A DNA stretch of 64,000 nt from Ralstonia sp. A12. Lineage in GTDB: Bacteria > Pseudomonadota > Gammaproteobacteria > Burkholderiales > Burkholderiaceae. Position numbers and translations under genes: made by a program. Below are positions 48,332-63,618 of this stretch, in pieces. Numbering within the stretch: the stretch's first letter is position 1; the number at the start of each line of letters is the position of its first letter. The stretch covers positions 1-64,000 of the forward strand of contig NZ_JSZO01000024.1 in NCBI RefSeq assembly GCF_000801955.1. The letters are read 5' to 3'. A model generated the notes under the pieces. The model did not search any database. It was given only the letters and a program-made list of their open reading frames with translations, and was not told where the DNA came from.

Positions 48332-48556
48332 GTTGTTCGTCTCCCAGGGGCTGCAGCACGATCGCGCCGATCGCGTGGACAGTCCTTGCAGGCTAGCCAA
48401 AGCGGCTTGCCCATCCATCGTCTGATCAGACTATCGGCATGCCCGCATCACACTAGCCGGTCTTCTCTCTGGCCGGCGCGTAGTCTGTGTGGACGATGAA
48501 CAGGCGCGCAGCTGCCAGCAAGATGCCTCTCCAGGCCACATTTGCCAGGAGACCCG

Positions 48557-49060
48557 ATGAACGACGCCATACAAGCGCTGCTTGAGACCGAAGCGATCCG
48601 GCAGTTGAAGTACCGGTACTTTCGCGCGGTGGATTGCCACGATTGGCCGTTGCTGGCCAGTTGCCTTGCAGAGGACTGCACCACCTGGCTCGACAGCGGC
48701 AAATACCGCTTCAACGGCCGCGACGCATTTGTCAGCGAGCTGCGCAAACTCCTGGACGACCCGCCACTGCTCACCCTGCACCAGGGCCACCACCCCGAGA
48801 TCGAGCTGCTGAGCGCAGACCGGGCCAAGGGCCTCTGGTACCTGGAGGACTATGTGATCTCGCAAGCGCAGAACTGGCTGCTGCGCGGCACGGCCTACTA
48901 CCAGGACGAGTACGTCAAGCGCGATGGCCGGTGGCAGATCCTCTCCACCGGATACGACCGCGTGTTCGAGGCCGTCACCTCACCGATCCCCGAGGATTTT
49001 CGCGTCACCGCCAACCGCTTCAGCGCGGCCCGACAGCACACGCCTTCTCTCACCTCCTGA
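48557..49060 (+). CDS. NTF2/SnoaL-like protein (second)
   Basis: A 167-residue NTF2-fold protein with the same layout as the one at 47834: LLETEAIRQLKYRYFRAVD, then TLHQGHHPEIELLSADRAKG with the His pair, and YYQDEYVKRDGRWQILSTGY at the end of the sheet. AGGAGA precedes the ATG. It leads the tight plus-strand run with the EthD protein (12-bp gap) and the SDR (25-bp gap). The two divergent NTF2-like genes may form a heteromer or act on successive intermediates. Confidence 0.85.
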   Translation: MNDAIQALLETEAIRQLKYRYFRAVDCHDWPLLASCLAEDCTTWLDSGKYRFNGRDAFVSELRKLLDDPPLLTLHQGHHPEIELLSADRAKGLWYLEDYVISQAQNWLLRGTAYYQDEYVKRDGRWQILSTGYDRVFEAVTSPIPEDFRVTANRFSAARQHTPSLTS

Positions 49061-49072
49061 TTCGCACACACC

Positions 49073-49798
49073 ATGGAAAAAGTCCTGTACGTCATCTGGC
49101 GCGGCAAGACCGGCAACAATGGCGACGCCAAAGCGCTCGACCAACGCTTGCGCGGCGAGATTGCAGACAAGCTGCTGGCGCTTGGCGCGCACGGTGTTCA
49201 GGTCAATCTGGCCGATGCCGCTGTACAGCCCGCCGATGGCCTGCGCCAGGTCAACACGCGCCCGCAGATGGACGGCGTGATCAGCGTCTGGATGGACAGC
49301 GCCATCAAGCAATTCCGGCAGCCGTTCGATGATCTGATCGAATCGGCAGTCGAACGCATGGCGGCCTACTTGGTGACCGAGTCACAGCCGATTCGCAATA
49401 CGCGCTTTCCGGCCAAGCCGGGCGAACGCACGGCCGGGTTCTCTCAACTGGCCTTTCTCCGCCGCCCGCCCCGGCTCACACCGGAAGCCTGGCTCGACAT
49501 CTGGCACCACCATCACACCCAGGTGGCTGTTGAGACGCAGGACAACTTCCTCTACGTGCAGAACGTGGTGGTCCGCCCGCTGACGCTGGGCGCCCCGCTC
49601 GTCGACGCCATTGTCGAAGAATGCTTCCCGGCCGCGGCCATGACTGATCCGTACGCCTTCTTTGACGCCGTGGGCGATGAGGCGAAGTTCCAGCAGAACG
49701 TGGCACGCATGATGGACAGCTGCAACCGCTTCATCGACTTCGACAAACTCGATGTCGTGCCCACCAGCCAGTACGTGATCAAGGCGCCGGGCGCCTGA
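49073..49798 (+). CDS. EthD-domain protein
   Basis: A 241-residue protein with two ferredoxin-like halves. EthD features are seen in the second half: FSQLAFLRRPPRLTPEAWLD, then IWHHHHTQVAVETQDNFLYV with a His cluster. EthD-type proteins assist or catalyse steps in ether or polyketide and steroid-like metabolism. The function here is unknown. It is between the NTF2-like and SDR genes and likely acts with them. Confidence 0.8.
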   Translation: MEKVLYVIWRGKTGNNGDAKALDQRLRGEIADKLLALGAHGVQVNLADAAVQPADGLRQVNTRPQMDGVISVWMDSAIKQFRQPFDDLIESAVERMAAYLVTESQPIRNTRFPAKPGERTAGFSQLAFLRRPPRLTPEAWLDIWHHHHTQVAVETQDNFLYVQNVVVRPLTLGAPLVDAIVEECFPAAAMTDPYAFFDAVGDEAKFQQNVARMMDSCNRFIDFDKLDVVPTSQYVIKAPGA

Positions 49799-49823: not shown

Positions 49824-50663
49824 ATGGCCGCCAAGCTTCCGCTCAAGGGACAAACAGCGTTCGTTACCGCTGGCGCAGACGGCATCGGCACCGCAAGTGC
49901 GGCTGCGCTGCTGCGCGACGGCGCAACCGTCCTGCTGATGGGCCGCCGGCGCGATGCGCTGGAGCACAGTCGCCAGCAGTTGCGCGCGCAGATTCCCGAC
50001 GCCAACGTACACATCTGCGCGGGCGATGCTGGCCGGGCCGGCGACATGCAGGCAGCGCTCAAACAGGCCTGGTGGCTGCAAAGCCGCCTGGACATCGTTG
50101 TACCTACCCTGAGCAGCGCCGGCACCCGCCCGCTCCTGACGCACGATGAAGCAAGCTTGCGCAACGCGCTTGAACTGCATGTCGTCAGCGCGTTCACTGC
50201 CATTCGACTTGCCGCGCCATGGATGGCCCGACAAGGCGGCGGATCGATCGTCTGTATCGCATCCGATACTGCGCGCGCAGACTTCAAACGGCTCTCGGCC
50301 CATTGCGCGGCCAGCGCCTGCCTCGATGGGCTGGTGCGTGCGGCCGCAGAAGAGTTGTCATCCGCAGGCATCCGCGTCAATGCTGTGCGTGCAGACCTGA
50401 CACAGGCGAATACCACCGTGCCCACGTTCGGTGCGTCCGCAATACGTATGCCGCTCGGCCGCCCCGACACCCCCGAAGACATCGCCACAGCGGTGCGCTA
50501 TCTGGCCGGCCCGGAATCGGCACGGGTGACCGGGCAAAGCCTGGCCGTCGATGGTGTCCGTGCATTGCGCCAGCGCCCCGAACCCGGTGGTGCTGCCCGT
50601 CGCCTTCACGGCGAGACAGCCCGCTCTGGCCTCGACAACGCGCAGCTAATCAGCTCGCGCTGA
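49824..50663 (+). CDS. SDR-family protein lacking catalytic Tyr and Lys
   Basis: A 279-residue Rossmann-fold protein. The cofactor motif is partly kept (FVTAGADGIGTASAAALLRD, with Ala for the first Gly), as is SIVCIASDTARADF for the Ser region. The place of the usual YxxxK reads HCAAS in LSAHCAASACLDGLVRAA, so both catalytic residues are missing. It may be a binding or regulatory protein rather than an oxidoreductase. A 30-residue Arg/Gly-rich C-terminal tail is unusual for the family. Confidence 0.8.
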   Translation: MAAKLPLKGQTAFVTAGADGIGTASAAALLRDGATVLLMGRRRDALEHSRQQLRAQIPDANVHICAGDAGRAGDMQAALKQAWWLQSRLDIVVPTLSSAGTRPLLTHDEASLRNALELHVVSAFTAIRLAAPWMARQGGGSIVCIASDTARADFKRLSAHCAASACLDGLVRAAAEELSSAGIRVNAVRADLTQANTTVPTFGASAIRMPLGRPDTPEDIATAVRYLAGPESARVTGQSLAVDGVRALRQRPEPGGAARRLHGETARSGLDNAQLISSR

Positions 50664-50669
50664 ACCGGC

Positions 50670-51890
50670 CTACGGTGTGTAGCCGTCGTTCAGCGTTCTG
50701 AGGAACGCGACCACATCCCGGAGATCTGCTTGCGACCACACGGGCTTGTCGCCTTTGCGGTGCGTGAACGGCGCGTTGATGTGGTCGACGTTGTCCTGCA
50801 GGGCTTCGGGCAAATCGTCGAACTGCTGTTTGCCACCGGGATGGGGATACCACTTCTGCGGTGCGGTATCGCGCTCCACGTAGAAGCGCAGCGCCTCTTC
50901 CAGCGTGTGGAAGCGCCCGTTATGGAAGAACGCGCCACGCGTGGCCACGTTGCGCAGCGTGGGTGTCTTGAACTGGCCGCAGTAGCTTTGCTCGGCCTTC
51001 TGATCGGACCGCGCCGGACCACAGAGGCCTAAGTCGTAATAGTTCGGATCGGCGTTGGCCGGAATGCTCGGGTTGCGCGGCACACCGATGGCCGCGAAGC
51101 TGAAATCAGTCAGCTGCGGGTGTGCGCCGTTGGCACCCGGCTCAACGGTATGGCACGCCGCGCAGTTGCCGCCGTCCCGGTCTTTGAACAGCCTGAGGCC
51201 ACGCTGCTCCTGCGCGGTCAACTGCACCTTGCCGTCCAGGTAGAGGTCGAACTTGCTGTCGTAGGGCTGAAAGCTCGGGTCATCGAGCTGGAAGCGCTGC
51301 AATGCCTGCCCCAAGGCGGCAAAGGCCGCATCCGGGTGCGCAAAGACGTCCTGTCCGAAGACGTCTTGGAAGCGCGCGGCGTAGGCGCTTTTGGAAAGCC
51401 GCTCCACCACGGCGGCGGCACTGGGGTTGGCCATTTCATTTGCGGCCAGCAGCGGCGCAGCAGCCTGATCGGCCAGGGTGTTGAAGCGGCCGTCCCAGGT
51501 GAAGCCGCCAACCGGCACGTTGTCGGTCTCGGTCAGGCGCTCGCGGGCATTCGACGTAAAGGTCTTGAACCAGATCGGGGTACGCCGCAGATAGCGCAGC
51601 GACGGTACCGCGCGTGTGCCGTAGTCCTTGAGCTCGGGCCCTCCCAGTTGCACCGCCAGCCCATTCGGCGGGCCGTAAGCGTGGTCCGGGCTATGGCAGG
51701 TCGCACACGACACGCGGCCGGACGCAGACAATGACGCGTCGAAAAACGCCAGCCGGCCGATCTCGGCCTGCGCCTGATTGGATGGCTTGACGGCCACCAC
51801 ATCCGGCTGGCGCGTACAACCTGCCAGGCACAAAAGCACCGCCGCGATAGCGGCAGCCCTTCGTGCCTGGCGCCGCCCCTGGGTCACCAC
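50670..51890 (-). CDS. Dihaem cytochrome c peroxidase/MauG-family lipoprotein
   Basis: A 406-residue exported protein with lipobox CLAGC (Cys near 25) and two haem c sites, CATCH (about 62-66) and CAACH (about 244-248). ATRGAFFHNGRFHTLEEAL near 320 is typical of the CcpA/MauG family. It would act in the periplasm, either reducing peroxide or oxidising a partner. Its start overlaps the end of the phosphoesterase gene by seven bases, so the pair is translationally coupled. Confidence 0.9.
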   Translation of the reverse strand: MVTQGRRQARRAAAIAAVLLCLAGCTRQPDVVAVKPSNQAQAEIGRLAFFDASLSASGRVSCATCHSPDHAYGPPNGLAVQLGGPELKDYGTRAVPSLRYLRRTPIWFKTFTSNARERLTETDNVPVGGFTWDGRFNTLADQAAAPLLAANEMANPSAAAVVERLSKSAYAARFQDVFGQDVFAHPDAAFAALGQALQRFQLDDPSFQPYDSKFDLYLDGKVQLTAQEQRGLRLFKDRDGGNCAACHTVEPGANGAHPQLTDFSFAAIGVPRNPSIPANADPNYYDLGLCGPARSDQKAEQSYCGQFKTPTLRNVATRGAFFHNGRFHTLEEALRFYVERDTAPQKWYPHPGGKQQFDDLPEALQDNVDHINAPFTHRKGDKPVWSQADLRDVVAFLRTLNDGYTP

Positions 51891-53194
51891 TGCAGATTGG
51901 TGAAGATGTCGTTGCCAAACGGCACCAGGTTCTGGTCGTCGGCGTAACCCAGGTAGCCGTTGGTCTGGAAGATGTTCTCCAGGCTCTTGAGCATCGAGTA
52001 GTGGTTGTACGCCGTATTGCTGACCGTACCGGGCTTGATGAAGCGCGACAGCATCACCGCACCGGTGCGGTCACCACCCACGCCCACGTAATGCAGCTTG
52101 TATTGCAGCGTTGCAGAGACCGGCAGGATCACATCGTCCGGGCGTACCACATTCGGGCCGGGCTGCTGGCCACAACACGCATCGCCCGGCAGGTTCACGG
52201 TGACTGTGGTCACGCCATTCACGGTGGTTTTACCTGCCGGCACCATGTCGGCCGACTCATCGAAGTTGATGATGATCAGACCGTCCTTCTGGTAGGCCGG
52301 AGACGCCTGGATGATCGGAATCCACTTCTTGAGGAAGGCGTTGATCGAGGTCAGGCCGCCCTTGTCGCCGTTGACGCAGGGCTTGGCGCCCGTGCCGTCG
52401 CCGTCGTGGCCGTCATCGCACAGGTTGGGCGTGATGAACACGAAGTTGGGCGTGGTCTCGATCTTCTGCAGGTCGTTCTGCAGATTCGCATCCAGGTTGA
52501 CGACGTGGCTGTCGCAATAGGCCTGGTCGTCGATGATCGCGTGGAAATACATGAACGGGTTGTGGCGGGTCGCGTACTGGTCGCCCTTGGGCACATCGGC
52601 CGTGGGCGCCTGTGCCGACTGCGTGTTGTCCATCGCGCCGATCTTCGGATGCCCGCAGGTGGCAGATTCACGGGTCGGGTCGTTGCCCATGTCGCCCATG
52701 TAGCCCTTCCAGGTCAGCTTGAGATCATCGAGCTGGTTGACGAAGGTCTTCACCGTGTTCGGATACACGCAGCCCATGCCGCCCTTGGCCTTGAGGACCT
52801 TGGGGTTGGCGGCATCCCAGCCATCGGCCACCACGTCGTTGAAGCCCATGTTGCAATCGCTCTGGGTTTCCTTGGTGGACGGCTGACCGCTCATCATCGC
52901 GAGGTAGTTATCCAGGCTCACGTGGCCTGTGCCGTAGTACTGGGTCAGCAGCGCGCCCTGCTTTGCCATGGCTTGCAGATCGGGATCCTGCGTGCTGGTG
53001 CCAAAGGTGTCGTTGTAGTTCTTGTTCTCCATGGTCAGCACGAATACGTGCTTGATCGACTGCTGGGTGGGCGGATCGTCCTCCATATTGCAACCGCCCA
53101 GCATGCCGCTCAGCACGGCACCCGCAACCAGCGCACCAGTAACACGGCACAGCGCATGCAACGCACGCAGTGAACCTTGACGCATAGCCTGCAT
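51884..53194 (-). CDS. Phosphoesterase lipoprotein (PF04185, acid phosphatase/phospholipase C type)
   Basis: A 436-residue exported enzyme with a lipoprotein signal (LVAGAVLSGMLGGC). The metal-site motif is VFVLTMENKNYNDTFG near residue 50, with HVSLDNYLAMMSG at about 92-104 and IIINFDESADMV at about 315. These fit the alkaline-phosphatase-superfamily phosphoesterases such as AcpA. Substrate could be a phospholipid or a phosphomonoester. The ATG has GGGGAGGGG upstream. Many Cys residues suggest disulfides in the periplasm. Confidence 0.88.
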   Translation of the reverse strand: MQAMRQGSLRALHALCRVTGALVAGAVLSGMLGGCNMEDDPPTQQSIKHVFVLTMENKNYNDTFGTSTQDPDLQAMAKQGALLTQYYGTGHVSLDNYLAMMSGQPSTKETQSDCNMGFNDVVADGWDAANPKVLKAKGGMGCVYPNTVKTFVNQLDDLKLTWKGYMGDMGNDPTRESATCGHPKIGAMDNTQSAQAPTADVPKGDQYATRHNPFMYFHAIIDDQAYCDSHVVNLDANLQNDLQKIETTPNFVFITPNLCDDGHDGDGTGAKPCVNGDKGGLTSINAFLKKWIPIIQASPAYQKDGLIIINFDESADMVPAGKTTVNGVTTVTVNLPGDACCGQQPGPNVVRPDDVILPVSATLQYKLHYVGVGGDRTGAVMLSRFIKPGTVSNTAYNHYSMLKSLENIFQTNGYLGYADDQNLVPFGNDIFTNLQW

Positions 53195-53429
53195 AGACCC
53201 CTCCCCTTTTTTGATGTGAGATATCGGTCGGGCGCAATGGATGTCAGCCCGTACCTCGGCTTGTCGCCTCCAGCAACGTCGGACGAAAAAAGAACGCGGG
53301 ACACGCATCGCCCCGCGCTCCAATGGCTGGAGATCACGTTGCCAAGCCGGCTCTTACGTTAGGAGGGCGACGATGTCTCGGCATCGTCCAAGCAGACTAC
53401 GTTTGCATGAGGCAGAAGTGTCGACGTGA

Positions 53430-54392
53430 CTAGGGCTTGCCGAAGCATGCAGAGAAGCTGCCGATGAAATGTTCGATGTCGGCATCCGGCAAGTGGTTGA
53501 TGCCGGCGGCCAGGCGACGCCCGCCACCGGTGTCGAAGCCGCGGCAAAAATCTGCAGCCCCAGTGGGGCATGCTGCCGGCACTCGCACACTGACGGCATA
53601 GCCGCCGGTGCTCTTTGGCGATAGCAGGCCAATGGCATCGCCCGGGCGGGTGCGTGCCAGTTCGTTGCCCAGCACGCCGATCGCGCGGCGCGCCCACGGC
53701 GCATCCGGCAGCACCAGCAGCGCTGCGCCGGGAACCTCGTGCACGGGTGCGATGGACCGCGCGCGAGTCATGTCGTCCTCATAGCCGGCACGCAAGACGC
53801 GATACGCAACGCTTTGCGCAGCAAACGCCAACGGGTTCTCGAAGGGCAGTATGTACTGCGCCAGCGCAGCGGGATCGAAATGCAGATCGGCCAGGCACTC
53901 GCCGTAGGCGTTGTAGTTGAGGCAGGTGCCGAGTTGTTCCAGTGCGGCGGTGTCCTGCGCGCTCAAGCCCGCCTGCGCCGCCATGGCATGCGCCACACCG
54001 GTCAGGTTGTCGCCAAATGCCGCCGTGATCGCCCAGCGGTGGTAACGGCCGCCCAGGTACCGGTCAACCAGGATGCTGGTGCAGACGGTGGCGCATTCGT
54101 CGATATGGGCGCGCAGCCCGGCATGAACCGGCAGCTCGCCGGCATGGTGGTGGTCGAAGTAGTCCACAACCGCGCCGGCCTGCAGCAGACGCAGCAACCC
54201 TTCGCGGTTCTGGTCGAGCGAAATGTCCAGCGCGGTCACAACATCACCGGGTTGCACATTGATGCGTTCCAGCAGATGGATGTCGCGCTTGATGCCGGTC
54301 ACGAGCGTGGCGTCGCAGGGTTGCGCCAGGCGCAGCTGCTGCAGCGCGCACAGGCCGTCGGCATCGCCGTTGAACGCAAAGTAGCGGGTCAT
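53430..54392 (-). CDS. DHH-family phosphoesterase-like protein
   Basis: A 320-residue protein. Metal-binding motifs of the DHH superfamily are visible: FNGDADGLCALQQL (about 7-20) and VVDYFDHHHAGELP (about 75-88), with a DHHA1-like end (GFDTGGGRRLAAGINHLPD). Family members hydrolyse phosphodiesters in small nucleotides or RNA. One usual Asp in a middle motif (ALDISLDQNR) also seems present. It follows the sulfotransferase-side SDR by 22 bp on the same strand. The link to that cluster is unclear. Confidence 0.82.
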   Translation of the reverse strand: MTRYFAFNGDADGLCALQQLRLAQPCDATLVTGIKRDIHLLERINVQPGDVVTALDISLDQNREGLLRLLQAGAVVDYFDHHHAGELPVHAGLRAHIDECATVCTSILVDRYLGGRYHRWAITAAFGDNLTGVAHAMAAQAGLSAQDTAALEQLGTCLNYNAYGECLADLHFDPAALAQYILPFENPLAFAAQSVAYRVLRAGYEDDMTRARSIAPVHEVPGAALLVLPDAPWARRAIGVLGNELARTRPGDAIGLLSPKSTGGYAVSVRVPAACPTGAADFCRGFDTGGGRRLAAGINHLPDADIEHFIGSFSACFGKP

Positions 54393-54414
54393 TGCTGGGC
54401 TCCCGATGGTTTGC

Positions 54415-55206
54415 TCAGGGCATGAAATCGCCACCGTTGGCATCGAGCGACGCCCCGGTGATGGCGCGTGCGTAGTCCGACACCAGGAACAGCGCCGCAC
54501 GGGCGCAGTCGTCATCGGTCGGCATGCGGCCCAGCGCGATCTGCGAGGCAATCGGTGCGACGATCTGGTCTTCGCCCACACCCTGCTCTGCGGCGGCGTG
54601 CTGCACATAGCCCTGCACCGGCGCGCCCCACATCCAGCCCATGAAGATGCTGTTGGCGCGAATACCGTGGTGGCCCAGCTCGCGCGCCAGATACTTGACC
54701 GCCACCGCCAGCGCGCCCTTGGATGCGGCATAGCCCGATTCGCCCGGCATCGGCTTGCGCGTGGCCTGGGTGTTGATCATCACGATGGCGCCGTGGCCCT
54801 GCGGTTTCATCAGGGCGGCCACTTCCTGCGTCAACGTCATGGTGCCGAATACGTTGGTCTCGAACACCTGGCGCCAGACGTCCAGATCGGCCGCTTCCAC
54901 AGGCTCAGGAAAATTGCCGTGCTGGTAGGCGCTGTTGACGAGGGCGTCGATACGGCCGCATTTGCGCATGACCTCGGTGGCCAGGGCCCGGCATTGATCG
55001 CGATCGGTGATGTCGGTGGGCACCTTCAGAACTTCGCAGTCCGCACCCAATGCGTCGATGCGGGCTTGCGCGTCGTCCAGCTTGGCCTGCGTGCGGGCGG
55101 CAATGGCAACGGCGCGCGCGCCCTCGCGAGCCGCCTCCACCGCCAGCTTCACGCCCAGGCCGGGGCCGATGCCCGACACGATGACCACCTTGTCTTTCAA
55201 CAGCAT
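54415..55206 (-). CDS. SDR-family oxidoreductase
   Basis: A 263-residue classical SDR. Cofactor motif VSGIGPGLGVKLAVEAAREG (about 10-29), NSAYQHG at 90, catalytic Ser region MINTQATRK, and Tyr/Lys in SGYAASKGALAV (about 157-168). MVINT has Asn-Thr where Ser is usual, so activity is plausible but less certain than for canonical members. It lies 34 bp after the sulfotransferase on the same strand, suggesting oxidation or reduction of the same metabolite. Confidence 0.87.
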   Translation of the reverse strand: MLLKDKVVIVSGIGPGLGVKLAVEAAREGARAVAIAARTQAKLDDAQARIDALGADCEVLKVPTDITDRDQCRALATEVMRKCGRIDALVNSAYQHGNFPEPVEAADLDVWRQVFETNVFGTMTLTQEVAALMKPQGHGAIVMINTQATRKPMPGESGYAASKGALAVAVKYLARELGHHGIRANSIFMGWMWGAPVQGYVQHAAAEQGVGEDQIVAPIASQIALGRMPTDDDCARAALFLVSDYARAITGASLDANGGDFMP

Positions 55207-55240
55207 AGTGTTGTCTCCTTGGGTAGCGCAGTGCGCTGTT

Positions 55241-56428
55241 TCAGGCTGCGTTCACATGCCGGGCGCGATAGGCTGCAAAGTCGCGCTCAATCTGTTCCTG
55301 GCTGAGCCCGAACTGCGCCGGGGCATAGGCATGCGCCGCACGCTGGTTGCGAGGGTTGCTGTCCATCCATGCCTGCATGCCCGCGCGGGCGGCGTCCGTC
55401 AGCGGCATGCCGGCAAAGCGGTACACCGCCTGCACCACGCCAAACGGGTCGCGCACCGTGTCTTCAAACCGGACATCCAGGAACCGCTCGGCAGGCATGC
55501 CGTCGCGCACGGCCATGGCATGCGCCGTCGCACGCTGCAACTGGGCACTCCACTGCCGGCCGACCGCCGCGGCGTCCGGTGCGTCTGCGTACAGCTTCCA
55601 CAAGGTATGCGCCATGCTTGCCATCGATGGAATGGTCTGGGTGGGGTCGCGATGGGTCAGCACCACCTGTGCACCAGGAAAGACCCGGAACAGGATCTCG
55701 ACCGAATGCAGGTGTTGCGGCGTTTTCAGCACCCAACGCTGCGCCACCGGTTCACCACGCTGGCGCTTCTGCCACTGTAGGAACTGCAGCATGGTCTTGA
55801 GATAGGTATAGACCGGGGTATGGTCCTGGCGCTCCAGCCAGGCGGTGTAGGCCGGCACATTCACGTAGGAATCCATCGCGCACATGAAGGAGTGCTCCAT
55901 CAGCATGAATTCCTCGTCGGCCTGCATGGCGTCGAGCGGGTGGATGGCCAGGATGTCGGGAATGAAGTGAATCATCTGCGCGACGTCTTCCTTCGCACGG
56001 GCGATACGCGGGCCGGCATCGCGCACGCCTTCTCCCGGCAACGGGGCCGGATAGCGCGTTTCCCACCATGCGGCGGAATGGAAACGGGCGTCCGTGGCCA
56101 GCATGCGTTGCAGCAGCGTGGTGCCGGTGCGCGGCAAGCCGATGATCACGAGTGGGTCTTCAACGCGCTCCTGCAGGATCTCCGGGTGGCACCGGCAGTA
56201 TTCCTGGATGACGAGCCTGTTCACCAGTTGCGCCAGCAGCTTGCCGTGCAGCAGATGCACGCCCTGCAGTGACAGGTTGGCCTCGCGCGCCAGGGAATCA
56301 AACAGCACGCCCAGCGCCTCGCGATAGTTGCCGGGCCCGAAATCCGTCAGCCCGCCTGTCTGGTCGCTGGCTTGCGCCAGCAGGCTGTCCACGTCGAGCA
56401 TCGTGGTGTGATCCGTGACAGCGGTCAT
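55241..56428 (-). CDS. Sulfotransferase (PAPS-dependent, Sulfotransfer_3 type)
   Basis: A 395-residue cytoplasmic enzyme. The 5'-phosphosulfate loop is VIIGLPRTGTTLLQRML (about 93-109) and the 3'-phosphate site VVLTHRDPTQTIPS (about 250-263). It transfers sulfate from PAPS to an acceptor hydroxyl or amine. Its ATG overlaps the DUF1214 stop (ATGA). On the other side of DUF1214, divergently, lie cysD and cysNC, which make PAPS. The acceptor is unknown; similar sulfotransferase/DUF1214 pairs often occur with steroid- or lipid-like metabolism genes. Confidence 0.87.
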   Translation of the reverse strand: MTAVTDHTTMLDVDSLLAQASDQTGGLTDFGPGNYREALGVLFDSLAREANLSLQGVHLLHGKLLAQLVNRLVIQEYCRCHPEILQERVEDPLVIIGLPRTGTTLLQRMLATDARFHSAAWWETRYPAPLPGEGVRDAGPRIARAKEDVAQMIHFIPDILAIHPLDAMQADEEFMLMEHSFMCAMDSYVNVPAYTAWLERQDHTPVYTYLKTMLQFLQWQKRQRGEPVAQRWVLKTPQHLHSVEILFRVFPGAQVVLTHRDPTQTIPSMASMAHTLWKLYADAPDAAAVGRQWSAQLQRATAHAMAVRDGMPAERFLDVRFEDTVRDPFGVVQAVYRFAGMPLTDAARAGMQAWMDSNPRNQRAAHAYAPAQFGLSQEQIERDFAAYRARHVNAA

Positions 56429-57549
56429 ACGACCTCCTTCAGCGTCTTCAACATCTCAAGCTTGACCACACGCGTGCGCGGATGCGCCGATTGCGCCAAT
56501 GGCCCCGCCCCCACCCAGCGCCAGCACATGGTGCCGTTGCGGTGTCCGCCGGTCTCCAGCCAGTTCGGCAGGCCAGGGTCGCGCGCGCTAAGGATGACAG
56601 TGATGCCGCCGTTGGCATCCAGCTGCCCGCTGTGCTTGTTCAAGCAGATGTCGTGGTAGCGGTAGTCGAGCGATTCCATCCAGTAGTTGTTGATCTGGAA
56701 GTTCCAGAATTCACACGCGGGCACGCGGTCCACCTCCACCACCAGCGCTTCGTCATCCTCCAATGCCCATTGCGAGTGGTAGTAGAAGATATTCGGGTCG
56801 CCGCCTGCGGCTTGGCACACCGCCTGGTCTGCAGGTGGTAGGTCATTGACGTGCGTGCCATAGCCCTGTGCCCAGTCGGCAAAGATGCGTGCAGTGTTCT
56901 CCACAAACCCGGCCGCGCGCAGCAGGCCGCCGTGCAGGCGTTCCGCACTCAGGGGGGACGGCTTGTCCTCGGCGCCAATCCGTTCGATGTGCAACTCGGC
57001 CGGCGTTTCCGCCTTGCGATCGAGAAAGGTCTGGCGCACCACCAGCGCATTGGTAGCCGCTTCCATACGCACCCAGTTGCCGTCGTGCGGCTGCACGCTG
57101 AGGATGAGTTCGAAGCTGCCGTCCGGCGCCACCGTCAGCTTGTTGCTGTCGATAAAGCCGGTCTGGATCATGCGGCCATCGGTTTCATAGCCGCCCTTCT
57201 GCGTGCCGAAGCTCAGATAGGCCACGGTGCCGCGCCGGCCGCGAATGCGGTAGGTCGCGTTGCCGTCCAGGCGCGCATAGCGATAGAGGTTGTCCGGGTT
57301 GTCCGCGCCGATCTTCGCGGTCTCGTGCGACGGTGAGAAGAAGCCGGGGAACGCCGGGTCGGCAAACTCCACGTGCATCTCCAGCGCAATGCGCAGCAGC
57401 CGGCTCAGGTAGCGGTAGCCCTCGGCGCGCGTCAGTGCATCGGCCGGTGCCTCCGTGCGCAGGATCTGCTGCCCGCTGCGCTTGAGCACCTCGCAGAACT
57501 CGGCCCAGGTCTGGCCGCTCAACAACTGCTCTTCGGCAGAAATCGCCAT
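56425..57549 (-). CDS. DUF1214-domain protein
   Basis: A 374-residue soluble protein. The C-terminal DUF1214 domain (about 270-360) shows ACEFWNFQINNYWMESLDY and GTMCWRWV, with many aromatic residues. The N-terminal part (SGQTWAEFCEVLKRSGQQIL) is helical, and DGNATYRIRGRRGTVAYLS begins a beta sandwich. No catalytic set is recognised. It is cotranscribed with the sulfotransferase, and probably shapes or binds its acceptor. Confidence 0.82.
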   Translation of the reverse strand: MAISAEEQLLSGQTWAEFCEVLKRSGQQILRTEAPADALTRAEGYRYLSRLLRIALEMHVEFADPAFPGFFSPSHETAKIGADNPDNLYRYARLDGNATYRIRGRRGTVAYLSFGTQKGGYETDGRMIQTGFIDSNKLTVAPDGSFELILSVQPHDGNWVRMEAATNALVVRQTFLDRKAETPAELHIERIGAEDKPSPLSAERLHGGLLRAAGFVENTARIFADWAQGYGTHVNDLPPADQAVCQAAGGDPNIFYYHSQWALEDDEALVVEVDRVPACEFWNFQINNYWMESLDYRYHDICLNKHSGQLDANGGITVILSARDPGLPNWLETGGHRNGTMCWRWVGAGPLAQSAHPRTRVVKLEMLKTLKEVV

Positions 57550-57789
57550 GTGCTTGCTCCTGTTGTTCGTATGCGCAACAGGCAGGCCCTGTCAGCGCGT
57601 CGAAGCAACGGTACCAAGCGCATCCGTGCGGCTTCCTCCTCCACCTGGACTAGAAAACGCACCGCGCGGCACATCATTTTTTAGTCCGCCCGGACGAAGT
57701 GGTGCAGCACCCCGGCTCGCTACCTTTTCACCATGCCGAGTACCCCACGACATCCGTGATTGGGGCCGGCAAGCGAAGAGGAGACTTCG

Positions 57790-58686
57790 ATGTTGACCCA
57801 CCTGGAGCAACTGGAGGCGGAGAGCATCCACATCATGCGTGAGGTGGTGGCGGAGTGCGAAAACCCCGTCATGCTCTACTCCATCGGCAAGGACAGCGCG
57901 GTGATGCTGCACCTGGCCATGAAAGCCTTCTACCCGGCCAAGCCGCCGTTCCCGCTGCTGCACGTCGATACGACGTGGAAATTTCGCGAGATGATCGCCT
58001 TCCGCAACCAGACCGCAGAGCGCCTCGGGCTGGACCTGCGCGTGCACATCAACCCCGACGGCATCGCACGCAACATCAGCCCGCACGAGCACGGCTCGGC
58101 CGTGCATACCGACATCTGGAAGACGCAGGGGCTCAAGCAGGCGCTGGACCACTACGGCTTCGATGCGGCCTTTGGCGGCGCCCGGCGCGACGAAGAGAAA
58201 TCGCGCGCCAAGGAGCGCGTGTTCTCCGTGCGCACTGCGCAGCATCGCTGGGACCCGAAGATGCAGCGCCCCGAACTCTGGCGCCAGTACAACGCCCGCA
58301 AGCGCAAGGGCGAAAGCCTGCGCGTGTTCCCGCTGTCGAACTGGACCGAGCTCGACATCTGGCAATACATCTACCTCAACGACATCCCCATCGTCCCGCT
58401 CTACTTCGCCAAGGAACGCCCCGTGGTGGAACGCGACGGCGTGATGGTGATGGTCGATGACGACCGCCTGCCCCTGCGCCCCGGCGAAAAGCCCGTCATG
58501 CGCAAAGTGCGCTTCCGCACGCTCGGCTGCTATCCGCTGACCGGCGCCATCGAAAGCGAGGCCGACACGCTGGACGGGATCATCCGCGAAATGCTGCTGG
58601 CCACCACGTCCGAGCGCCAGGGCCGATTGATCGACAGCGATTCCGCCGGGTCGATGGAGAAGAAGAAGCAGGAGGGCTATTTCTGA
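57790..58686 (+). CDS. cysD: Sulfate adenylyltransferase subunit 2
   Basis: A 298-residue ATP sulfurylase small subunit of the PP-loop family: [18 protein letters not shown] (about 32-49), [31 protein letters not shown] and [16 protein letters not shown]. It makes APS from sulfate and ATP with CysN. The ATG has GAGGAG upstream. Its TGA overlaps the cysNC ATG by one base (TGATG). It is divergent from DUF1214 and the sulfotransferase, with a 240-bp shared promoter region. Confidence 0.95.
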
Positions 58687-60641
58687 TGGATACGCTACTG
58701 GAAGCCGCGCCGGGATTGACACACTCGATGGCGCAATCGGCGCACGACGACGTCGCGCAATACCTGCATGCCCAGAAGAACAAGGGCCTGCTGCGCTTCA
58801 TCACCTGCGGCAGCGTCGACGATGGCAAGAGCACCCTGATCGGCCGGCTGCTGTACGAGTCGAAGATGCTGTTTGAAGACCAGCTCGCGCAGCTCGAAGC
58901 CGACTCCAAGAAGATGGGCACGCAGGGCGACCAGCTCGACTTCGCGCTGCTGGTGGACGGCCTGGCCGCAGAGCGCGAACAGGGCATCACCATCGACGTG
59001 GCCTACCGATTCTTTGCCACCGACAAGCGCAAGTTCATCGTGGCGGACACCCCTGGACACGAGCAATACACCCGCAACATGGTGACCGGCGCCTCGACCG
59101 CCGACCTGGCCGTGCTGCTGGTGGATGCGCGCCGCGGCGTGCAGACACAAACGCGCCGCCACAGCTACCTGGTATCCACGCTCGGCATCCGCCGCGTGGT
59201 GGTGGCCGTCAACAAGCTGGACATGGTCGACTACTCGCAAGCGGTCTACGACGCCATCGAACGTGAATACCGCACGTTTGCGCAGCAGATCGGTCTGACG
59301 GACATCGTCTGCATTCCGATGTCGGCCCTGCGCGGTGACAACATCACCGCGCCAAGCAGCAACACGCCGTGGTACCAGGGCCCAACGCTGATGGCACACC
59401 TGGAGAACGTGCCGATCGACAGTGCCCCCACGCAGGACGAGCCGTTCCGCCTGCCGGTGCAGTGGGTCAACCGCCCCAACCTGGATTTCCGTGGTTTTGC
59501 GGGCACCATCAGCGCGGGTGAAGTGCGCGTGGGTGACCGGCTGCGCTCGCTGCCCTCCGGCCGCGAGAGCCGCGTGGCCAGCATCATCGGCACCAACGGT
59601 GCCGATGGTCACTGCGCGCAGGCGGTGCGCGGCCAGGCCGTCACGCTCACGCTGGAAGACGAGATCGATGTCAGCCGCGGGGACGTACTGGTGTGCGCTG
59701 AAGACCAGCCCGCCGTGGCGGACCAGTTTGAAGCCACGCTGGTGTGGATGAACGAAGAGGCCATGCTGCCCGGCCGCCCCTACCTGCTCAAGCTCGGCAC
59801 GCGCACGGTGGGCGCGACGGTGGCGCAGCCCAAGTACAAGGTCAACGTCAACACGCTGGAGCACCTGGCCGCGCGCACGCTGGAGTTGAACGAGATCGGC
59901 GTGTGCAACCTGCACCTGGATCAGCCGGTGGTGTTCGAAGCCTATGCGAAGAACCGCGACCTGGGCGGCTTCATCATGATCGACCGTCTCACCAACAACA
60001 CCGTGGGCACCGGCATGCTGCACTTTGCCCTGCGCCGCGCGCAGAACGTGCACTGGCAGGCCATCGACGTCGATCGCCGCGCACACGCCGCGCTCAAGCA
60101 TCAGACGCCGCGCATCGTGTGGTTCACGGGGCTGTCCGGCGCGGGAAAATCCACCGTGGCCAACCTGGTGGAAAAGCGTCTGCACGCACTCGGCCACCAC
60201 ACCTATCTGCTGGACGGCGATAACGTGCGGCACGGGCTGAACAAGGACCTGGGCTTCTCCGAGGCCGACCGGGTGGAAAACATCCGCCGCGTGGCCGAAG
60301 TGTCGCGCCTGATGCTGGATGCAGGGCTGATCGTGCTGGTGTCGTTCATCTCGCCGTTCCGTGCAGAGCGCGACATGGCGCGGGCGCTGGTGGGCGAAGG
60401 CGAGTTCATCGAAGTCTTTGTCGATACCCCGCTGGCGGTGGCTGAGGAACGCGACCCCAAGGGGCTGTACCGCAAGGCACGCCGCGGCGAGCTGAAGAAC
60501 TTCACTGGCATCGACTCACCTTACGAGCCGCCCGAGCAACCAGAGCTGCGCATCGACACCACAGCGGAGACGGCCGAGCAGGCAGCCGAGCGCATCGTCG
60601 CGTGGCTGCGGGAATCCGCGTCTACTGCAAACGGACGATGA
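58686..60641 (+). CDS. cysNC: Bifunctional sulfate adenylyltransferase GTPase/APS kinase
   Basis: A 651-residue fusion. The GTPase part (1-460) has the P-loop GSVDDGKST (about 38-46), DTPGHEQY, and NKLDMVDY. The APS kinase part (about 475-645) has [32 protein letters not shown] and [14 protein letters not shown]. Together with CysD it yields PAPS rather than only APS. Betaproteobacterial assimilation usually reduces APS directly, so a PAPS-forming fusion next to a sulfotransferase points to sulfation. A terminator follows at 60669. Confidence 0.95.
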
Positions 60642-60668
60642 AGCCACGGCCTCGATCCGTACGATGGG

Positions 60669-60692
60669 AAAGGCGGCCCGCGCCGCCTTTTT
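60669..60692 (+). terminator. Intrinsic terminator of the cysD-cysNC operon
   Basis: AAAGGCGGC (60669-60677) pairs with GCCGCCTTT (60682-60690), with a 4-base loop and five T (60688-60692). It lies 27 bp after the cysNC stop and before the LuxR-type gene. Confidence 0.85.
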
Positions 60693-60718
60693 CCGTTGTC
60701 GCGACGCGAGGATTCTTC

Positions 60719-61861
60719 ATGAAGCTGTCAGACCCGCTGCCGGCCAGCGAACTGAGCGCCCTGCTCGATCTGCTCTATCAGGGGCCGACCGAGACGGTGC
60801 CTTGGGCGGGCTTTCTCGAAAGCGTGCGCAAGCGGCTGGATGCGGCCTTCGTGACGCTGGTGCTGCGCCACCCCGCCACGTGCCGGCCCGGGCTGATCGT
60901 CAACGCCTCAAGCTACGGCCCGCTCCTACCGGGTGAGCCCTCCTACAGCGAGCAGTACTACGCCCTGTGCCCATTCCTGGATCTGCATCCGGACCGCCTC
61001 TTCAGCGCCGACGAACTGTTCGGCCAGACCGGCTGGCTGGCGCACCCGTTCTACGTTCAATATCTGCAGCCGCTGGATCTGCGCTACATCCTGGCGGGCA
61101 ACCTGGTCACACCCAACGGGGTGGAGTGTGCGCTGTTCGTCAGCCGCAAACACGGGGCGCACGACTATGACGATGCCGACAAGGCAATGCTGGGCGGGCT
61201 GCTGCCGCACTTAAAGCGTGCGGTCGATCTGCACGCGCGGCTCGACGTGCTCGAATCGGAACGCACCCTGTACGAGGGCGCGGTGGACCGCCTGCTGGTG
61301 GGCACCGTCATCCTGGACGAGCGCGGCAAGGTGATGAAGACCAACGACATGGCCAACCGCCTGCTGGCCACGCGCGACGGCCTGCAGTTGAGCAACGGCG
61401 CCCTGCAGGCGCACTGCCCGGTGGAGAACCAAAGGTTCCGCAAGATTATCGAAGGCGCGGTCCAAGCGCAGGCCACCGCCAACATGCGCAGTGAAGTCAC
61501 CACGCTGACGCGGCCCACGGTGCCCACACCACTGAGCGTGCTGGTGCGCCCCATCCCGCTCAGCTACCGCGCAGAAGACAAGGCACGCCGGCCTGCCGTG
61601 GCCGTGTTCATTCGCGACCCGGCGGGCTCACCGCGCAACACGCACGCCAACCTGCGCAAGCTGTTCCATCTCACCCCTACGGAAATCGAACTGGCTCTGC
61701 TGATGGTGGATGGGCTGACGCTGAACGAAGCCGCCACCCGGCTCGGCATCAAGAAGAACACGGCACGCGCCCACCTGCGCGGCATCTTCTCCAAGACGGG
61801 CGCCACGCGGCAAGCCGTGCTGGTGAAGATGCTGTTGTCGAGCGTGGTGGTGATGGGCTGA
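60719..61861 (+). CDS. LuxR-type helix-turn-helix regulator
   Basis: A 380-residue regulator. The C-terminal LuxR DNA-binding domain (about 315-378) reads FHLTPTEIELALLMVDGLTL, then EAATRLGIKKNTARAHLRGI and FSKTGATRQAVL. The N-terminal 300 residues are a PAS/GAF-like sensor (KVMKTNDMANRLLATRDG near 210) with no receiver phosphorylation site and no autoinducer-binding motif. The ATG at 60719 has GAGG; an upstream extension of 39 codons overlaps cysNC and is not likely. It may regulate the sulfation genes or the SRPBCC protein next to it. Confidence 0.85.
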   Translation: MKLSDPLPASELSALLDLLYQGPTETVPWAGFLESVRKRLDAAFVTLVLRHPATCRPGLIVNASSYGPLLPGEPSYSEQYYALCPFLDLHPDRLFSADELFGQTGWLAHPFYVQYLQPLDLRYILAGNLVTPNGVECALFVSRKHGAHDYDDADKAMLGGLLPHLKRAVDLHARLDVLESERTLYEGAVDRLLVGTVILDERGKVMKTNDMANRLLATRDGLQLSNGALQAHCPVENQRFRKIIEGAVQAQATANMRSEVTTLTRPTVPTPLSVLVRPIPLSYRAEDKARRPAVAVFIRDPAGSPRNTHANLRKLFHLTPTEIELALLMVDGLTLNEAATRLGIKKNTARAHLRGIFSKTGATRQAVLVKMLLSSVVVMG

Positions 61862-61929
61862 ACAAACCAAACGGGGCGTCATCGAACGCCCTTTCCTTTT
61901 TCCAACAACGCCTGTTCATGGAGGAGCCA

Positions 61930-62427
61930 ATGGCCAAGGCAGAGAATCTCGTCACGTCGGTCAAGGTTGACATCAACGCACCGGCATCGCTGGTGTGGGA
62001 GGTGCTCACCGATTTTGCACGCTACGCAGAATGGAACACCTTCTGCCCCGGCTTGAAGACCACCGGCCGCCTGGGCGACGTGGTGCACATGCAGGTGCGC
62101 ATTCCGGGCACGGACCAGATCATTCCCGTCAACGAATACCTGGTGGCCTATGAGCCGGAACGCCTGCTGTCTTGGGAGCAGCGCCCGACCGATGACAACA
62201 AGGACGCCGCACGGCGCGACCAGTACATTGAGGCCGCTGGTGAGGATCGCTCCCGATACTTCACTACGGACCTGTTCCTGGGGCTGAACGCAGACACCAT
62301 CATGCGCGAGCACGGTGCGTGGGTGAAACAGGGGTTCGATCAGGTGGCACGCGATGTGAAGCAGCGTGCGGAGGCGCTGTATGCCGCCCGGCGCAGCGGT
62401 GCGGAAACCGTATCGCAGGCAAGCTGA
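61930..62427 (+). CDS. SRPBCC-family (polyketide cyclase-like) protein
   Basis: A 165-residue START/SRPBCC protein: VDINAPASLVWEVLTDFARY at about 12-31, then FCPGLKTTGRLGDVVHM and YEPERLLSWEQRP, and a long C-terminal helix (GAWVKQGFDQVARDVKQRAE). It binds a hydrophobic ligand in a deep cavity. It is 68 bp downstream of the LuxR gene; GGAGG precedes the ATG. With EthD and NTF2-like proteins nearby it fits hydrophobic metabolite handling. Confidence 0.82.
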   Translation: MAKAENLVTSVKVDINAPASLVWEVLTDFARYAEWNTFCPGLKTTGRLGDVVHMQVRIPGTDQIIPVNEYLVAYEPERLLSWEQRPTDDNKDAARRDQYIEAAGEDRSRYFTTDLFLGLNADTIMREHGAWVKQGFDQVARDVKQRAEALYAARRSGAETVSQAS

Positions 62428-62706: not shown

Positions 62707-63618
62707 ATGCTCAAGAAGCTGATGATGGCCGCCGTTGTGGCCCAAGCGTTCTCTGGATTGGCGATCGCTCACGACCAGAGCACTGTCGAAGACCTGAACC
62801 TTCACGGTGAACCGCCCATGCTTGGCCCGCATTGGGAGCGCGGCCAGGCTGCCGCCCACCAGGCGCGCACCAGCTCCAGCCCGCTCATGACCTATCACGG
62901 CGGAAAGATCATGACGACGGCGGTCACACAAACGATCTTCTGGGGTTCGCAATGGGCCAACAGCAGTTTCGTCGGCGACAAGATCACCGGCCTGGACGAC
63001 TGGTACACCGGCTTCAGCAACGCAAACTACGCGAAGACCAGCGACGAGTACACCGGGACGAACGGGCGCGTTGCGCCAGCCACGTCATACCTGGGCCACA
63101 TCATCGATACGAGCACGGCCTCCGGGGGCGGCTCCACCTCAGCCATCCTGGCCGAGGTCTGCAAGGTGATCAAGAACCCCGACCCATCGGGCAACGGCTA
63201 CTACGCGGTCTACACCGACCAGCCACGCGGCAACGCCGGCTATTGCGCGTATCACAGCTATGGCCAGTGCGGCGGCACGCCGGTGCAGTTCGCCTTCTTC
63301 TGGCACCTCGACGGTGACCCCGGCTGCGACCCGCAGGACACCTCGGGCCTGCATTCTCAAGGGCTCGCGGCGCTGGCGAATGTGTCTGGCCACGAACTGT
63401 CCGAGGCGCGCACCGATCCAGCCTCGCCCGGCGCCTGGTATGACCGCGGTGGCCAGGAAAACGGCGACAAATGCGCCTGGACCTTCGGCGCCCCGCTGGT
63501 GACGTTCAGCAACGGCGTGAAGTGGAAAGCCCAGGGCGAGTGGTCGAACGCCGCGTACAGCGCGGGCACCGGATATCCGAACGCGTCCGGACAACAGGGC
63601 TGCCTGTCGGGTCTCTGA
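62707..63618 (+). CDS. Secreted Exordium/PHI-1-like protein with HExxE motif
   Basis: A 303-residue exported protein with signal MLKKLMMAAVVAQAFSGLAI ending AHA. Its core resembles bacterial Exordium-like proteins: TTAVTQTIFWGSQW near 72, the loop YCAYHSYGQCGGTPVQF near 178-194, SGHELSEARTDPASPGAWYD near 226-245, and ENGDKCAWTFG. The HELSE segment looks like a possible metal site (HExxE), but protease activity is not established for this family. AGGAG precedes the ATG. It is single, followed by a strong hairpin. Confidence 0.68.
   Translation: MLKKLMMAAVVAQAFSGLAIAHDQSTVEDLNLHGEPPMLGPHWERGQAAAHQARTSSSPLMTYHGGKIMTTAVTQTIFWGSQWANSSFVGDKITGLDDWYTGFSNANYAKTSDEYTGTNGRVAPATSYLGHIIDTSTASGGGSTSAILAEVCKVIKNPDPSGNGYYAVYTDQPRGNAGYCAYHSYGQCGGTPVQFAFFWHLDGDPGCDPQDTSGLHSQGLAALANVSGHELSEARTDPASPGAWYDRGGQENGDKCAWTFGAPLVTFSNGVKWKAQGEWSNAAYSAGTGYPNASGQQGCLSGL

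Follow-up and report, generated by a model that had tools for sequence, protein, structure and literature searches.

In rhizobia and Xanthomonas, a second, dedicated copy of CysD/CysNC-type genes serves a sulfotransferase (NodPQ-NodH and RaxPQ-RaxST), the acceptor being a lipo-oligosaccharide signal for NodH and a peptide tyrosine for RaxST. The usual phosphatase for 3'-phosphoadenosine 5'-phosphate (PAP) is CysQ. Bacteroides is a gut bacterium and is not known as a ring degrader. Its genes BT_0411-BT_0416 combine PAPS synthesis with a cholesterol sulfotransferase, and BT_0412 and BT_0416 are cholesterol-induced, according to the sections of the report drawn on here (PMC9417993). PAP phosphatase activity has also been measured for MtPAPP (PDB 8A8K), a DHH enzyme of Methanothermococcus, whose metal ligands are given in the relevant part of that article as His6, Asp8, Asp10, Asp57 and Asp127 together with the DHH motif (PMC10322725).

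The locus analyzed here lies in a window of 64,000 nucleotides (the whole stretch of DNA examined) from Ralstonia sp. A12. Like the Bacteroides genes, for which a sterol acceptor was shown, it has putative dedicated PAPS genes beside a sulfotransferase; unlike it, BT_0411-BT_0416 come with no mention of DUF1214, SnoaL, EthD, DHH or steroid-catabolic neighbours in the sections drawn on (PMC9417993). A dedicated PAPS copy is also common to the Nod and Rax systems, whereas the present locus adds a link to steroid catabolism and a PAP phosphatase candidate. With the tes/TesR/TeiR system of Comamonas testosteroni it shares the genomes, the kind of LuxR regulator and an operator-like dyad, and sulfotransferase is absent from the main texts of papers on that system (PMC12502768, PMC6678751, PMC4810484 and PMC13101464). 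We consider it likely that the locus is a sulfonation module of a steroid-degradation regulon, which would act on a steroid-derived hydroxyl and recycle PAP.

The module spans positions 53430-62427 of the window and comprises the PAPS-synthesis genes, the sulfotransferase operon, a LuxR gene and an SRPBCC gene. On the plus strand, cysD (57790-58686; sulfate adenylyltransferase small subunit), with its start assigned to ATG 57790 and not TTG 57760, is followed by cysNC (58686-60641), encoding the GTPase subunit fused to APS kinase (NF004035, 1083 bits, cut-off 715; PF01583). The CysD, CysN and CysC parts all score above cut-off (NF009214, TIGR02039, TIGR02034, TIGR00455 and NF004035), so that CysD-CysNC is a predicted PAPS synthase by family. 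Divergent from them on the minus strand are the genes for a DUF1214 protein (56425-57549; PF06742, 30.9 bits, cut-off 25), a Sulfotransfer_3 protein (55241-56428; PF13469, 143.1 bits, cut-off 27), whose start overlaps the DUF1214 stop by 4 bp, an SDR of the PRK07890 subfamily (54415-55206; adh_short_C2, PRK07890 above cut-off) and, 22 bp after the SDR, a DHH/DHHA1-type phosphoesterase (53430-54392). Two sphingomonad plasmids encode SDRs close to sulfotransferases, and the SDR of the module shares 50% and 43% identity with them. Beyond cysNC, also on the plus strand, lie the LuxR gene (60719-61861) and the SRPBCC (Polyketide_cyc2) gene (61930-62427; PF10604). Elsewhere in the window there are two SnoaL_4 (NTF2-like; PF13577) genes, one on the minus strand with dyads in its promoter (47834-48331) and one on the plus strand (48557-49060), as well as an EthD-domain gene (49073-49798, plus strand; PF07110) and, 25 bp after it, a second SDR gene (49824-50663, plus strand; PF13561), which is probably co-transcribed with the EthD gene. 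The cysD-cysNC, DUF1214, sulfotransferase and SDR genes thus lie where the initial annotation had placed them, with family models above cut-off, and the LuxR, SRPBCC, EthD and NTF2-like genes that it had seen nearby are present as well, the last three with Pfam matches.

The PF13469 protein is predicted to be a PAPS-dependent sulfotransferase that performs sulfuryl transfer, as judged by its family and motifs. The GLPRTGTT motif, R260 and S268 are invariant in an alignment of 29 sequences, and the residues G97, R100, G102, T103, T104, R260 and S268 are matched in PDB entries 2zq5 and 2z6v, which we take to be mycobacterial sulfotransferases; the motifs presumably correspond to the 5'-phosphosulfate loop and the 3'-phosphate-binding Arg and Ser. 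The homology to these two entries is nearly full length (profile search, E 3e-68 and 1e-56, respectively), and tyrosylprotein sulfotransferases were matched weakly in the same PDB search. The DUF1214 profile matches 6ANS (E 4e-212), an entry labelled uncharacterized in the PDB, and the structure model of this protein has a pLDDT of 85.

The DHH-type protein is a candidate PAP phosphatase, as suggested by its modelled fold, its motifs and its alternation with CysQ across loci. The best fold match of its model, over 297 residues, is MtPAPP, with a DHH-DHHA1 fold. D10, D12, D56, D128, H81 and H82, taken from motif order as putative counterparts of the other metal ligands, are invariant, and the counterpart of MtPAPP His6, matched in the same way, is Asn8. 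The two proteins agree in fold, in the order of the metal motifs and in the placement of their genes beside ATP sulfurylase and APS kinase, but they are 12-13% identical, and the present one is bacterial and adjoins a sulfotransferase instead of a PAPS reductase (compared with MtPAPP as described in the consulted part of PMC10322725). The Pfam DHH and DHHA1 models match in that order along the protein, both below cut-off (16.0 bits against 28.1 and 15.6 bits against 25.9), and neither NCBIfam models nor a comparison of the DHH profile with PDB sequences gave a match. In the best 80 of 174 loci, the DHH gene was found in 49 and CysQ in 27, both together in none and neither in 4. The only Inositol_P protein of the Ralstonia genome resembles inositol monophosphatase and not CysQ. 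Neither the DHH gene nor the link to steroids was part of the initial annotation.

The module copy of cysD-cysNC had been read as dedicated to sulfating a metabolite, and the separate assimilatory set that this presupposes was found in the same genome. A second cysD with cysH is located at C23:118459-119916, in the order cysI-cysH-cysD-cysN (cysI named by eye); this cysH matches TIGR02055 APS_reductase (268 bits, cut-off 235), and this cysN is without an APS-kinase part. Because a separate cysH-cysD-cysN set of the APS-reductase type exists, the module copy is an extra one, and its being the sole assimilatory copy is ruled out. At least three PF01507 proteins are present in 17 of 20 sulfotransferase-bearing genomes. 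Another CysC-sulfotransferase pair is found in the Ralstonia genome, on C11.

Most of the module set recurs in beta- and gammaproteobacteria, and the synteny on which the initial annotation depended proved strongly conserved. In the best 80 of 174 loci, the sulfotransferase and DUF1214 occur together in 80/80 and a linked CysD in 75/80, a grouping above chance, and the gene order is maintained across families. The SRPBCC, SnoaL and EthD families were found in 66, 33 and 30 of these 80 loci, and EthD adjoins the sulfotransferase on the same strand in most Pseudomonas and Comamonas loci. Counts for sulfotransferase, DUF1214, CysD, CysNC, DHH and CysQ are based on tblastn, since gene calling had overlooked some genes or put them on the wrong strand; those for SRPBCC, LuxR, NTF2, EthD and SDR are based on single-linkage families (33% identity, 60% coverage), which pool paralogues in the case of SDR and NTF2.

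By co-occurrence, linkage and a shared operator-like dyad, the module is linked, as far as sequence can indicate, to 9,10-seco steroid degradation. Of 72 sulfotransferase-bearing genomes, 70 had the steroid marker IpdA, the scan covering the genomes of 72 of the 80 loci (all except L029, L064, L050, L051, L053, L055, L065 and L076). In a sample of 398 Pseudomonas genomes, scored for sulfotransferase and IpdA alone and not for the whole module, the sulfotransferase occurred in 19, IpdA in 67 and both in 19 (Fisher 1.8e-16, a value that takes no account of relatedness). Among 149 relatives, a close sulfotransferase and a close IpdA were found in the same 6. The two genes lie on one contig in 13 of 25 cases, within 61 kb in 12, and the module is repeatedly flanked by KshA-, KstD-, Hsa- and Ipd-like genes. 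In the Ralstonia genome, HsaD/E/G/F-like genes adjoin the module on C17, and HsaA-, KstD-, HsaC-, IpdAB- and KshA-like genes are on C30. Predicted homologues of KstD, KshA, HsaABCD and IpdABC of the 9,10-seco pathway are present in this genome: the best family matches (HsaA, HsaC, 3-oxosteroid dehydrogenase and HsaD) are all under their equivalog cut-offs, the IpdA-like protein shows 62% identity, and the KshA-, HsaB-, IpdB- and IpdC-like proteins were found by BLAST to loci labelled by eye. Burkholderia, Ralstonia and Cupriavidus steroid degraders are described, in the part of the study used here, as being without most cholate side-chain genes (Bergstrand et al., PMC4810484). Specialisation of the module by bile-acid side chain was considered for that reason but not adopted, as there was no clean split: the sulfotransferase-positive P. 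putida ASAD locus has a gene resembling a side-chain thiolase (Ltp2-like, by eye).

The LuxR-type regulator resembles TesR/TeiR, with 34% identity over 376/380 aa (E 3e-69) to the C. testosteroni LuxR that is the 18th gene from tesB and was taken as tesR by position. In the divergent cysD/DUF1214 promoter, an exact 18-bp dyad, WTCGTCYNNNNRGACTAA, is located at 57681-57698 in minus orientation, and a degenerate second copy with 3 mismatches, better preserved in relatives, at 57636-57653; two further copies, each with 1 mismatch, are at 48417-48434 and 48480-48497. The dyad is also present at the tesB, hsaA, hsaD and kshA promoters of the same genome (C17 and C30) and at tesB of C. testosteroni. 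This suggests a putative operator common to module and steroid promoters, at which binding and induction by steroids may be expected. Across 81 sequences there were 157 strand matches at 152 positions, 5 near-symmetric sites being counted on both strands, and none lay within called genes, which is how intergenic was defined. The pattern was drawn from module promoters, so counts at those promoters are not independent of it; its base 1 was widened to A or T after inspection of steroid promoters, and other module genes are represented among the 103 matches away from the cysD/DUF1214 pair. When all 81 sequences were shuffled once, the final pattern had no match. With 2 mismatches allowed, the Ralstonia genome pieces gave a match within a gene at L116:8965 and another at L099:4965, in a suhB region without called genes. 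Promoters of CysQ-type modules had the dyad in 0/27 at up to 1 mismatch, and the main text of a transcriptome paper (PMC10637631) contains no sulfotransferase, cysD or cysN.

In the reading that we favour, a sulfonation module within the steroid regulon, CysD-CysNC would convert sulfate, ATP and GTP into PAPS, and the PF13469 sulfotransferase would pass the sulfuryl group on to a hydroxyl on a steroidal or seco-steroidal intermediate. The inhibitory by-product PAP would be converted to AMP by the DHH protein, or by CysQ in other lineages. Because their linkage is conserved, the DUF1214, SDR, SRPBCC, SnoaL and EthD proteins may handle the substrate of the sulfotransferase too, either ahead of the sulfation step or following it. 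The TesR-like regulator beside cysNC would activate the module through the 18-bp dyad when steroids are present. The hydrophobic or cyclic acceptor suggested at first is consistent with these data and may be narrowed to steroid catabolism, given the co-occurrence, linkage and shared putative operator. Since many steroid degraders are without the module, it is probably accessory and serves a subset of steroids. Sulfation would most likely turn a hydroxyl that is intractable to the core pathway into a leaving group or removable mask; solubilisation or detoxification as its purpose is nearly as likely. A more specific version is possible, if somewhat unlikely as a whole: in some aerobic steroid degraders, sulfonation would be a true catabolic step, in which a steroid-induced module consumes PAPS so that a recalcitrant hydroxyl of the steroid becomes a sulfate leaving group, to be eliminated or rearranged by the DUF1214, SnoaL, EthD, SRPBCC and SDR proteins. 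A family of bacterial DHH phosphatases beyond the reach of curated models would remove PAP, and a dedicated TesR paralogue would read the T-variant operator.

Animal phase-II SULTs conjugate in a fashion comparable to what detoxification or export would require, namely that reactive or membrane-active steroid phenols and catechols (such as 3-HSA or 3,4-DHSA), or excess steroid, are conjugated, the sulfate then being excreted or, at a later stage, hydrolysed. In several loci the module adjoins KshA- and A-ring-type genes, with which it has the dyad in common, 21 loci hold an MFS family that in many of the Burkholderia loci directly adjoins the LuxR gene, and sterol sulfation by a bacterial PAPS and sulfotransferase cluster is known from the Bacteroides report, in the sections cited (PMC9417993). 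We nevertheless judge this explanation unlikely, as plain conjugation would leave the DUF1214, SDR, SnoaL, EthD and SRPBCC enzymes superfluous, most IpdA-bearing Pseudomonas genomes have no sulfotransferase match, and inspection of the module by eye revealed no sulfatase.

The same small proteins, which come from polyketide-tailoring-like families, are compatible with a non-steroid sulfated product (a surfactant, lipid or signal) used for uptake or communication during growth on steroids, as are the LuxR-type regulator and a phosphopantetheinyl-transferase-like family (c16, by eye) downstream in 18 Burkholderia loci. Yet the LuxR resembles TesR, steroid genes recur in the flanks, and inspection by eye of the neighbour families shared between loci turned up no backbone synthase, so such a product seems distinctly improbable; a secondary-metabolite cluster was rejected on the last point. 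Catabolic genes often cluster, and the steroid link could then reflect a shared genomic island, the second cysDNC serving sulfate assimilation or general phenolic sulfation; PAPS is usable by other sulfotransferases, such as that of the C11 pair. The common dyad, IpdA co-occurrence in two separate genome samples, the module's own PAP phosphatase candidate and a gene order kept across families argue against this account, which we regard as very improbable.

Research on aerobic steroid degradation goes back decades. The initial annotation had known of no described pathway with this exact set; among the papers listed by our literature search no title was on the cluster, and sulfotransferase is absent from the main texts on steroid degradation searched by term. 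The results suggest that steroid breakdown may include a sulfation step not described so far. A costly PAPS-making module placed in the regulon would mean a chemical step new to this pathway and would provide steroid chemistry with a set of sulfonating enzymes, and could explain how some bacteria deal with particular hydroxylated steroids; it also offers a testable setting for DUF1214 and for a DHH family outside the Pfam and NCBIfam models. The dyad may provide a route to further steroid genes. One more copy, with 1 mismatch, is located at 53383-53400, upstream of a phosphoesterase gene (51884-53194), and its counterpart is also present in R. soli (L026:13060).

All genes listed in the initial annotation were found in the window and are intact. 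On the minus strand, the DUF1214 gene (56425-57549) shares a 4-bp overlap with the sulfotransferase gene (ST; Sulfotransfer_3, 55241-56428), followed by a PRK07890-subfamily SDR gene (54415-55206) and, after a gap of 22 bp, a gene for a 320-aa DHH protein (53430-54392). The latter product matched Pfam DHH and DHHA1, both below the cut-off, and no NCBIfam model. Divergent from these four genes, cysD (ATG at 57790) overlaps cysNC (58686-60641) by one base, and beyond cysNC lie a gene for a LuxR-type regulator (60719-61861) and an SRPBCC gene (61930-62427). The DHH gene is followed by genes for a PF04185 phosphoesterase (51884-53194) and a MauG/CCP-type di-haem protein (50670-51800), two families also found there in R. 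soli; the stretch at 47.8-50.7 kb holds a pair of SnoaL_4 genes together with one EthD gene and another SDR gene.

The genome encodes three PF01507 proteins: CysD of the window, and CysH and another CysD from neighbouring genes on contig C23, where the order is cysI, DUF934-like, cysH, cysD, cysN and cobA-like (cysI, DUF934-like and cobA-like named by eye). The second, assimilatory cysDN is thus present beside cysH. Because this CysH scores 268 bits with the APS-reductase model (cut-off 235) and a model search found no kinase part in the C23 CysN, the window cysD-cysNC should be dispensable for sulfate assimilation, which agrees with the earlier proposal that this copy is not assimilatory. At least three PF01507 proteins were detected in 17 of 20 ST-bearing genomes, and two in the remaining three (Stagnimonas, Nevskia and Hydrocarboniphaga). 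A second sulfation locus was seen on contig C11 (L098:7374-9121), where a stand-alone APS kinase gene overlaps another PF13469 sulfotransferase gene, with no cysD seen near the pair.

NodPQ/NodH and RaxPQ/RaxST are known dedicated PAPS-sulfotransferase sets, and the module resembles them in this respect. It is also similar to a set in Bacteroides, which, according to PMC9417993, joins putative dedicated PAPS genes to a sterol-sulfating sulfotransferase. Literature searches of open-licence papers found no module of such make-up within a steroid-degradation regulon.

Scanning 84,980 species, each represented by a single genome, with the ST gave 174 relatives. In the best 80 of these 174 loci, tblastn detected ST and DUF1214 in all 80, CysD and CysNC in 75 each, DHH in 49 and CysQ in 27, so the synteny, whose conservation had been in question, is conserved; gene-family counts were 66 for SRPBCC, 54 for LuxR, 33 for NTF2-like and 30 for EthD. 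PAPS-synthesis, sulfotransferase and phosphatase-like genes are united in one conserved module. The usual order in Burkholderia, Cupriavidus and Ralstonia is LuxR-cysNC-cysD divergent from DUF1214-ST-SDR-DHH, and most Pseudomonas and Comamonas loci have cysD-cysNC-DUF1214-ST-EthD-SnoaL-SRPBCC-SDR(-SnoaL) on one strand with cysQ divergent. For ST, DUF1214 and CysNC, the correlations of pairwise distances are 0.92-0.96, as for genes travelling together. Stagnimonas, Nevskia and Hydrocarboniphaga carry DUF1214-ST-SDR-EthD together with IpdA, a steroid-degradation marker, and tblastn found no linked cysD or PAP phosphatase at these three loci, which may represent a more ancient version of the module; Nevskia, outside the 75 CysNC loci, has an APS kinase alone, encoded between the ST and SDR genes. 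Two sphingomonad plasmid records also combine DUF1214, ST and SDR, at 37-50% identity, in a stretch of about 9 kb. The CysD of the 27 CysQ-type loci (L088:4964-6877 and 26 others) is a single open frame extended at the N terminus by about 330 residues, which in the one protein scanned matched winged-helix domains and, weakly, DDE_3, suggesting a transposase-like domain fused to the ATP sulfurylase subunit.

The module keeps company with steroid genes and shares an operator-like dyad with them. Recurrent flanking genes resemble the 9,10-seco pathway (KshA-like Rieske oxygenase, KstD, HsaA/HsaB, HsaC/TesB, HsaD-G, IpdA/B/C, EchA20 and DUF1302/DUF1329); many names were assigned by eye, there is no dedicated model for IpdA, and the NCBIfam HsaA, HsaC, HsaD and KstD models were best or near-best matches, yet under their equivalog cut-offs. 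In this genome, a seco-pathway-like set lies on contig C30 and HsaD/E/G/F-like genes lie on contig C17, that of the window, about 2-10 kb past the module. A single R. soli contig holds the steroid set at 20-60 kb, the HsaD-G set at 64-72 kb and the module up to 82 kb.

Within the order of this strain the ST is patchy, matching at E 1e-30 in 7 of 149 relatives, one of them merely 35% identical. Close matches to the IpdA-like marker (59-66% identical) were found in six relatives, and these coincide with the six that have a close ST (Fisher 7e-11); when every match at 1e-30 is included, six relatives have both, one has ST alone and five have IpdA alone (Fisher 2e-7). Among 398 genomes from the same genus as P. 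fluorescens PS862 (E 1e-60), ST occurred in 19 and IpdA in 67, with both in 19 (Fisher 1.8e-16). IpdA was found at 1e-30 in 70 of 72 genomes tested among the best 80 of 174 ST loci (misses, G151 and G584). ST and IpdA share one contig in 13 of 25 genomes with both, within 61 kb in 12 and 1.2 Mb apart in one. The core block hardly differs in six ST-negative Pseudomonas steroid loci, with DUF1329 and KshA at its end in five of them, and the stretches compared contained no recognised module gene; in PS862, KshA and the module are 724 bp apart. On this comparative evidence, the module is therefore an accessory of steroid degraders rather than a core part.

Two copies of an imperfect 18-bp palindrome occur in cysD/DUF1214 promoters of distant lineages. 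Allowing at most one mismatch, the pattern WTCGTCYNNNNRGACTAA gave 157 strand matches (152 positions), spread over 63 of the 81 sequences analysed (1.70 Mb, 193 kb outside called genes); none fell inside a called gene, and a single Markov shuffle of the whole set yielded none. It was present in 32 of 33 divergent cysD/DUF1214 promoters, and 103 matches lay outside this pair, including HsaA-, HsaD- and DUF1329-type promoters. In this genome, such dyads lie in the module promoter at 57681, by the SnoaL pair at 48417 and 48480 and, at 53383, upstream of the PF04185 gene, with two around hsaD on C17 and others at tesB, hsaA and kshA on C30; even at two mismatches, the stretches examined around the assimilatory cys genes and on C11 had none. 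In C. testosteroni ATCC 11996, an earlier form of the pattern located dyads upstream of tes genes, tesB among them. The LuxR encoded next to cysNC shows 48% identity to a LuxR in this genome's steroid cluster and, along its length, 34% to the C. testosteroni LuxR whose gene is the 18th from tesB, a position that a reference title in PMC12502768 gives for tesR. The first base of the dyad is T in 88 of 92 matches adjoining cysD, cysNC or DUF1214, and A in 45 of 47 others and in 16 of 18 at SRPBCC alone, which would fit LuxR paralogues, as two related regulators, sharing out the sites. None of the 27 CysQ-type promoters carried the dyad at one mismatch or fewer, where a related one has 2-4 mismatches; this argues against a uniform regulon.

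We propose that steroids induce the module, that PAPS would be produced locally and its sulfuryl group passed to a steroid-derived hydroxyl, and that PAP would then be hydrolysed, with the remaining enzymes probably working on the same substrate as the ST. The main rival is conjugation for detoxification; a leaving-group or masking role of sulfonation best explains the accompanying enzymes. A non-steroid product of the module is less likely.

Two other features of the window were observed. Positions 1-1512 hold a long open frame built of near-repeats of a short unit. A 303-aa protein whose start is signal-like is encoded at positions 62707-63618, and a similar one at L118:18576-19487; in each of the two Ralstonia genomes the gene lies near the steroid genes.
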